Assembly: GCA_016204945.1 (NCBI GenBank)
Contig: JACQJQ010000208.1
Span: 1 to 44,665 of the forward strand
DNA: 44,665 nt
Direction of reading: 5' to 3'
Origin: Elusimicrobiota bacterium
Lineage (GTDB): Bacteria > Elusimicrobiota > Elusimicrobia > UBA1565 > UBA9628
Position 1 is the first letter of the stretch; the number at the start of each line of letters is the position of its first letter. The notes under the pieces are model-generated. The model saw nothing but the letters and a program-made list of their open reading frames with translations, was not told the DNA's origin and made no database searches. Of this stretch, positions 5,986 to 9,003 are shown one piece after another. The position numbers were made by a program, and so were the translations under genes.

Positions 5986-6014
5986 TTGCTGCCGGCCCGG
6001 CGGCCTGTTATACT
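5986..6014 (+). promoter_or_regulatory. tmRNA promoter TTGCTG-N17-TATACT
   Basis: TTGCTG 5986-5991, 17-nt spacer, TATACT 6009-6014; predicted +1 falls at or next to the tmRNA 5' end (6023). Confidence 0.75.
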
Positions 6015-6022
6015 AGCTCGTC

Positions 6023-6377
6023 GGGGGTGATCTAGCTTCGACAAGCGTCGTTGAGCCGTCGGCCGCAGGCACGGGTTGGTCAGGGCCCGTTAAAAACCGG
6101 ACCAAACAACAACTGCCAACACTCAGTTGGCTTGGGCTACCGCCTAAACCGCGGTGAGCACACGCTGGTCCTTGACGCCTGCTAGAGGGTCGCCAGTGTA
6201 ATGAGCAGGATGCGGTCCTTCCCCGTTATTCCGTGGGCGGGGGGCCTAAGACCGAACGGAGTTAGCCCGGGGAGCACGCGTCCATCGGTTTTCCCCGGGC
6301 GAAACCAAGGATGGGCTAAGCCTGTAGTGGTCTCGGTCGGCGACGTTTGGACGCGGGTGCAAATCCCGCCACCTCCA
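6023..6377 (+). ncRNA. ssrA: tmRNA (transfer-messenger RNA)
   Basis: 5' GGGGGTGATCTAGCTTCGAC; acceptor stem GGGGGTG (6023-6029) pairs with CACCTCC (6370-6376, one G-U); 3' GGACGCGGGTGCAAATCCCGCCACCTCCA; tag ORF GCC AAC ACT CAG TTG GCT TGG GCT ACC GCC TAA (6115-6147) with the stop in the loop of a hairpin (GCTACCGC/GCGGTGAGC). Confidence 0.95.
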
Positions 6378-6385
6378 CCGTTTTA

Positions 6386-7698
6386 ATGGGCGACTCGCAT
6401 TCGAGAGCGGTGACTCTGCTTGGGTCGTACGGGCTCTTCGCGGGGCTGGCGCTGCTCGTCGTGGCCCGCCCCGAGCTCGGCCCCGGGGTCGTCTCCGCCT
6501 GCGGCCTGTGCCTGCTGTGGTCGGATTTGCGGCGGGACGGCGAATCCCCGATCGTCCTCACCTTCCTGGCCACCGTCGTCGCCGTCGTGCTGATGCTCCG
6601 CTCGGACGGCGCCCGCCCGCTTCTCGCGGCCGGCCTTGGCGGCCTCTGGCTCCTGGCCGGAGCGCAGGCCGCGCACCGCGGCCGGCAGTTCGCCGACGAG
6701 CGCGAGACCCTGCTCGAGCAGATGAACCTGCAGGACGGCATCCGCGACGACGAGCGCGACCTGAAGTACTACCGCTCGTACGAGGAGACGGTCGCCGTGG
6801 ACACGCGGCTGCGCCGCGACCTGTCCGACGCGGCCAAGAGCCTGTCGGGCACGCTCGACGGCCACGAGGTTCAGGCGCGCCTGATCACGATCCTATCCGA
6901 GCGCTTTCCGTCCGCGCGCGTGTCCGTCGTGGGCGGCGCGGGCGAGGACCCCCTGCTGCTCGCCGCCCAGCGCCGCCGCGGGCCCATCCTGATCAAGGAC
7001 GCGCGCGCGGAGGCGCAGATCGTTCCGGGCGCGCGCTTCGCCTCGGGGGTGGCGATCCCGCTCAAGGTGATGCGCGAGGCAGCGGGCTTCGTCAAGCTCG
7101 AGAGCGACGCGCCGGGCGCGTTCGGCCCCGACGAGGTCCGCGCCGCGGACCTGTTCGCGACGATGGCCTCGCTCTCGCTCGAGAACATCCGTCTCTACGA
7201 GAGCGTCCATCGCCAGGCGACGCACGACGCGCTGACCCAGCTGCACAGCCACCGCGCGTTCCAGCAGCGCCTGCAGGAGGAGGTGCTGCGCTCGGGCCGC
7301 AGCCAGACGCCGCTGGCCCTGATCATGCTCGACGTGGATCATTTCAAGCGCTACAACGACCAGTTCGGCCACCAGGCCGGCGACCAGCTTCTGCGCACTC
7401 TGTCCGCGATCCTGGCCTCGTTCGCGCGGCCGGTGGATTTCGCCGCGCGCTACGGAGGCGAGGAGTTCGCGCTGATCCTGCCCAATTTCGTGCGTTCGGA
7501 GGCCGTCCAGCTCGCGGAGCGCGTCCGCGCGCGCATCGCCGAGGAGCCCTTCGTCTTCAACGGAGCGCCGACGCGGGCGACGGCGAGCCTCGGCGTGGCG
7601 GCGTTCCCGACCGACGCGACCACGGCGTCCCAGATCGTGCGCGTGGCGGACGAGCGTCTGTACCGCGCCAAGCACGGCGGCCGCAACCAGGTCGTCGG

Positions 7699-7702
<4 letters not shown>
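6386..7702 (+). CDS. Membrane-anchored GAF-like + GGDEF diguanylate cyclase
   Basis: N-terminal TM segments; RYGGEEFALILP active site; RPVD I-site five residues upstream of GGEEF. ORF track start (6347) lies inside tmRNA, so ATG 6386 preferred. Confidence 0.9.

Positions 7703-9003
<1,301 letters not shown>

Follow-up and report, generated by a model that had tools for sequence, protein, structure and literature searches.

Tags encoded by tmRNA in a broad lineage of Elusimicrobiota end in Trp-Ala-x-Ala (W-A-x-A), and the full-length ClpX protein was found in none of the searched genomes that carry such a tag. Sequence comparisons indicate that, after ClpX was lost, the tag was probably re-specified for some protease other than ClpX, a judgment that applies to non-ClpX proteases collectively and not to Lon in particular. 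The starting point was a 44,665-nucleotide stretch of DNA (the window) from one such genome, G000. Families (f1 to f17) and genomes (G followed by three digits) are given working codes; the clade of the window comprises f1 to f5 and f11 to f13.

The tmRNA gene and its tag reading frame

The window contains a one-piece tmRNA gene (ssrA) at positions 6023 to 6380 of the forward strand. ARAGORN reported a single tmRNA at 6023 to 6379 (+) with the tag ANTQLAWATA followed by a stop, and Rfam model RF00023 matched 6023 to 6380 over its full length (model positions 1 to 374; 146.1 bits against a gathering score of 47; E = 1.6e-57). The acceptor stem is GGGGGTG/CACCTCC, and the 3' end reads ACCG, the CCA end being incompletely encoded. 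This is the only copy above the Rfam cutoff in G000, which also encodes SmpB (TIGR00086, 149 bits, above the cutoff). The gene is a real, working-looking tmRNA. A scan of the region near it returned no promoter above threshold; a subthreshold TATACT hexamer resembling a −10 element immediately 5′ of the gene (6009 to 6014, +) and a weak −35 element, TTGCTG, 17 bases upstream of the hexamer are only suggestive of a promoter. Directly 3′ of the tmRNA lie two tandem GGDEF-type genes (6386 to 9003), the first confirmed by Pfam and the second recognized by a GGEEF motif only.

The tag reading frame spans 6115 to 6147 (+), with the codons GCC AAC ACT CAG TTG GCT TGG GCT ACC GCC TAA. The Rfam alignment places the resume codon GCC (6115 to 6117) opposite the conserved GCA codon of the family and therefore fixes the frame, which starts at the conserved resume codon and stops at helix 5, as required of a tmRNA. 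An earlier sequence-only reading of the window had proposed the same tag, with its stop codon in the loop of the helix 5 hairpin. ARAGORN, the Rfam alignment, and the codons themselves all agree on the tag, and the RF00023 covariance alignment, inspected for a resume codon in another frame, kept this one. Helix 5 (6136 to 6159, +) pairs 6136 to 6143 with 6151 to 6159, with a bulged base at 6156 and the stop codon in the loop. Across 17 relatives, 91% of cells were paired and both sides had changed in 11 cells; when the partner strand was slid by 1 to 3 columns as a control, pairing fell to 18 to 55%. The hairpin was not chosen when the short segment was folded alone, so the evidence for it is comparative, and this covariation bears out the proposed position of the stop.

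Conservation of W-A-x-A tags in the clade

In the clade of the window, 90 of the 93 tags that were read end in W-A-x-A, where x is T, V, H, N, A, C, or L. The three exceptions are AMNRLTARDWAFAA (G020), which ends in DWAFAA; AMPNMAFATA (G034), in which Phe replaces Trp; and ANVDTSTVAWSVA (G039). Four genomes without a tmRNA above the cutoff (G007, G026, G053, and G046; loci L061 to L064) were excluded from the count. The N-terminal residues and the length of the tags are variable, as in ANSNELAWAHA, GNNYNNNVWATA, and ADNVGYAWATA. A few f12 tags, read by eye and with an uncertain first residue, begin with AGC or ACT, not GCN or GGC; this apparent Ser or Thr start is seen at loci L346 to L349, L351, L353, L354, and L125 (e.g., SNNNQVAWANA and TNDNQVAWANA).

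Against this variable background the Trp, the next Ala, and the terminal Ala show almost no variation across the 93 genomes, while codons change synonymously. Among the 38 genomes that share the 10-residue layout of the window tag, third codon positions vary and the peptide hardly does, as expected under selection on the peptide. Could the W-A-x-A end instead be a by-product of the RNA structure of helix 5 and its flank? The last three tag codons do lie within helix 5. However, helix 5 covaries and its sequence is therefore free to change, the Trp codon (TGG, 6133 to 6135) lies outside it, the Ala codon after the Trp is GCC, GCT, GCG, or GCA in different relatives, and tmRNAs of the same kind encode LALAA in relatives that have ClpX. 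We regard this structural explanation as very improbable and attribute the conservation to the peptide.

When 84,980 species genomes were searched with a tag-region pattern, 49 matches were obtained; because the pattern was built from clade tags, W-A-x-A tags of different make-up elsewhere would be missed. Forty of the matches fall in records named Elusimicrobia, Elusimicrobiota, Elusimicrobiales, or Elusimicrobium, the other 9 are labeled only "bacterium," and none belongs to another named phylum. The same pattern had no match in viral contigs.

Tags of other Elusimicrobiota families

Five families of the same class (f6 to f9 and f14) encode ANTELALAA, ANSELALAA, ANEQLALAA, ANEELALAA, or GEPLALAA. 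Tags of most other classes also end in -AA (ANTYAYAA, ANNNLALAA, and ANTEMAMAA), including the long tags of f15, of which DKQIVPNSMFKPFMGFGAMPIAA is one example. The f15 tags of this type (loci L095, L111, L074 to L077, L082, L088 to L092, and L094) are about 18 to 35 residues long. Their first residue is Asp or Asn, not Ala, their last residues are PIAA, PLAA, PFAA, or the like, and several were misread by ARAGORN. In G060, a c-di-GMP-I riboswitch (Rfam, 58 bits) lies near the tmRNA (L079, 2666 to 2778). Families f16 and f17 differ in their tags, which read ASYTPVVAHA, AVYTPVVAYA, AEYTPVVVAHC, and AEYTPAYATA.

The sequence-only reading had pointed to close relatives as the place where a standard LAA tag would tell against an atypical one. 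Members of the same genus, family, and order carry W-A-x-A with few exceptions, and standard LALAA tags are seen only in more distant families, all of which have ClpX.

Absence of ClpX from genomes with W-A-x-A tags

Profile searches for ClpX covered 77 and 248 Elusimicrobiota genomes, some of the genomes whose tags were read lying outside both sets. Full-length ClpX was present in 88 of the 248, all in families in which every tag that could be read ends in -AA; it occurs in f6 to f9, in f14, and in most other classes. None was found in any searched member of the window's clade, G000 included, or in the searched f16 and f17 genomes. All 10 of the ClpX sequences that were checked retain the GYVG and RKH loops, which bind the ssrA tag in Escherichia coli.

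The position that clpX would occupy is also empty. ClpX-bearing genomes have the gene order clpP-clpX-lon (n = 19), and in 41 genomes, 37 of the window's clade and 4 of f16 and f17, clpP and lon are adjacent without clpX between them; spacing in ClpX-less genomes is mostly 40 to 280 bases. In G000, the start of Lon comes immediately after clpP (contig C41, 2671 to 3297); this Lon frame was identified by its likeness to the Lon starts of relatives. It runs to the end of the contig, and for that reason the assembly holds no whole Lon. Most f12 genomes do not have clpP next to lon, and in G059 both genes are missing, which may reflect a single assembly gap. Neither ClpX nor Lon was seen in G195, a genome that is only 79% complete.

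A ClpX-like ATPase of 500 to 600 residues, with GYVG and IGF-like motifs, is encoded by a minority of both ClpX-bearing and ClpX-less genomes. We rejected it as a replacement reader, since it is patchily distributed over both kinds of genome and has neither the zinc domain nor the RKH loop. At L220 (2268 to 3782, −) and at L156 to L158, a winged-helix-like N terminus replaces the zinc domain of this AAA+ protein, and in G031 its gene adjoins one of 180 amino acids.

Most of the genomes are draft metagenome assemblies, and ClpX might only appear to be absent because of incomplete assembly or divergence beyond the reach of the model. Several observations make this highly improbable: the absence holds in genomes that are 90 to 100% complete, the 41 adjacent clpP and lon pairs leave no clpX between them, the same model recovers ClpX in 10 bacterial controls as well as in the 88 members of the phylum, and the ClpX-like ATPase lacks the features of ClpX noted above.

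The adaptor SspB (PF04386) was detected in 0 of 23 genomes, with the E. coli and Caulobacter controls positive, and was accordingly rejected as an adaptor in these genomes. The sequence-only reading had framed recognition of the tag around ClpX, ClpA, and SspB; in G000, however, no true ClpX was found, its place in the operon is empty, and SspB was not found.

Coincidence of ClpX loss with tag change

On a Lon tree of 57 genomes, ClpX changed three times, each change a loss, and the tag end changed twice. Each tag change falls together with one of the two larger losses of ClpX. The third loss affects a single genome, G079, and brought no tag change: in this complete f15 genome (L224, 68 to 3877) tig is followed directly by lon, clpP and clpX are both gone, and the tag still ends in -AA (FAAMAA); the loss looks recent. 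The root of the tree was not inferred; we took ClpX and the -AA end as ancestral because clpP-clpX-lon occurs both in this class and outside it, a choice that general knowledge also favors. Since the phylum offers two independent switches only, a sign test has no power and significance by phylogenetic pairs is unreachable. The link between ClpX loss and tag change is supported by anatomy rather than statistics.

We propose the following sequence of events. The ancestor would have had a clpP-clpX-lon operon and a tag ending in -Ala-Ala, the element read by ClpX. The clpX gene would have been lost from between clpP and lon twice, once in an ancestor of the main clade and once, independently, in an ancestor of f16 and f17. 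With ClpX gone, the constraint on -AA would fall away, and the tag end would then have become fixed as W-A-x-A in the main clade or as (V/Y)-A-x-A in f16 and f17. A new reader would need a bulky or aromatic residue, an Ala, almost anything, and a final Ala. The sequences show the tag, how well it is conserved, that ClpX is missing, and how the operon changed; that tagged proteins continue to be degraded, and by which protease, we infer.

In an alternative that we consider unlikely, constraint was simply relaxed: the tag end would drift into a weak degron, and trans-translation would survive as ribosome rescue. The -AA end is indeed gone from two large ClpX-less lineages, and tmRNA is generally useful for ribosome rescue by itself. 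Drift, however, would not conserve the Trp, the following Ala, and the final Ala in tags whose codons, N termini, and lengths vary as described above. The fixation of these three residues after ClpX loss makes a new reader likely and, together with the absence of ClpX, lends support in kind to the earlier suggestion that the W-A-T-A end could imply altered recognition of the tag.

Candidate readers of the tag

Lon is our first candidate reader, with a likelihood that we place slightly short of even. The Mycoplasma tag ends in YAFA, and Gur and Sauer in 2008 and Ge and Karzai in 2009 reportedly found that the Mycoplasma and Mesoplasma ssrA tag is read by Lon. This precedent, the presence of Lon in nearly all clade genomes searched, and G206 led us to put Lon first; G206 (99% complete; L336) keeps the tag ANTQLAWATA with no detectable ClpC and so favors Lon.

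A close second, held more tentatively, is that ClpCP and not Lon reads the new tag, a possibility that shares the re-specification and in which ClpP would have been kept because ClpC feeds it. ClpP and ClpC are present in G000 and in most of the clade, where SmpB is also mostly retained, and the ClpC of most W-A-x-A genomes is 57 to 100% identical to the reference copy; Lon is thus not singled out. G020 (97% complete; L047, 301 to 667), in which neither ClpC nor ClpB was detected, is among the few genomes with a deviant tag, which could favor ClpC. Set against this are G206 and the finding that many ClpX-bearing relatives whose tags end in LALAA likewise encode ClpC, the pore loops of which (KYRG and GYVG) look alike in the ClpX-bearing and ClpX-less groups. 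FtsH or another protease is an unlikely reader, and we give a similarly low likelihood to the tag no longer being a degron.

Changes in Lon and ClpC, whether shared or confined to a clade, were considered as a sign of the reader and rejected, as they did not exceed those of control clades: Lon shared changes at two sites, versus 0 to 4 in the control clades, and ClpC shared none.

Comparison with known tags

The terminal Ala-Ala-COO− is the key element for ClpXP (PMC7652416). The E. coli ssrA tag (ANDENYALAA), which is directed to ClpXP, resembles the window tag in its tmRNA fold, Ala resume codon, A-N start, 10 encoded residues, stop at helix 5, and SmpB partner. The window tag differs in ending in W-A-T-A, not L-A-A, and thus in Thr-Ala instead of Ala-Ala, in a genome where neither a ClpX gene nor SspB was found. 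The nearest relatives with LALAA tags, f6 to f9 and f14 of the same class, have tags of comparable length, most of them beginning with A-N; they differ in the LALAA end and in the presence of clpP-clpX-lon.

A review describes strong conservation of the ALAA end, with Mycoplasma as the exception: there the tag ends in AFA, and ClpXP, ClpAP, and Tsp are missing (PMC3985003). In both Mycoplasma or Mesoplasma and the Elusimicrobiota clade, ClpX was lost, and an -AA tag end gave way to Ala-x-Ala preceded by an aromatic residue. Mycoplasma differs in having reduced genomes and no ClpAP, whereas genomes of the Elusimicrobiota clade are about 1.2 to 4.9 Mb and have mostly kept ClpP and ClpC. The Mycoplasma tag is also longer than that of the window, clade tags having about 10 to 14 residues, and Lon, its reader there, is only a candidate reader here.

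Our literature search found no open-access paper that links Elusimicrobiota to tmRNA tags or ClpX loss, although single tags from this phylum may be listed on the tmRNA Website. The tmRNA system itself is known; what is new is a class of tags linked to loss of the protein that ordinarily reads them. On balance, we favor the view that W-A-x-A tags form a new class of natural ssrA degron, which arose after ClpX loss in a broad Elusimicrobiota lineage that keeps ClpP, ClpC, and Lon. With f16 and f17, there would be two further independent cases besides Mycoplasma in which a tmRNA tag converged on (bulky residue)-Ala-x-Ala to suit a protease other than ClpX.

A large part of this phylum departs from the usual tag end, and the departure tracks the loss of ClpX. 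The clade makes a clear prediction for purified Lon and ClpCP and supplies candidate tags for degradation systems without cross-talk to ClpXP. It also offers a natural test of the coevolution of degron and protease, in bacteria that still have ClpP.
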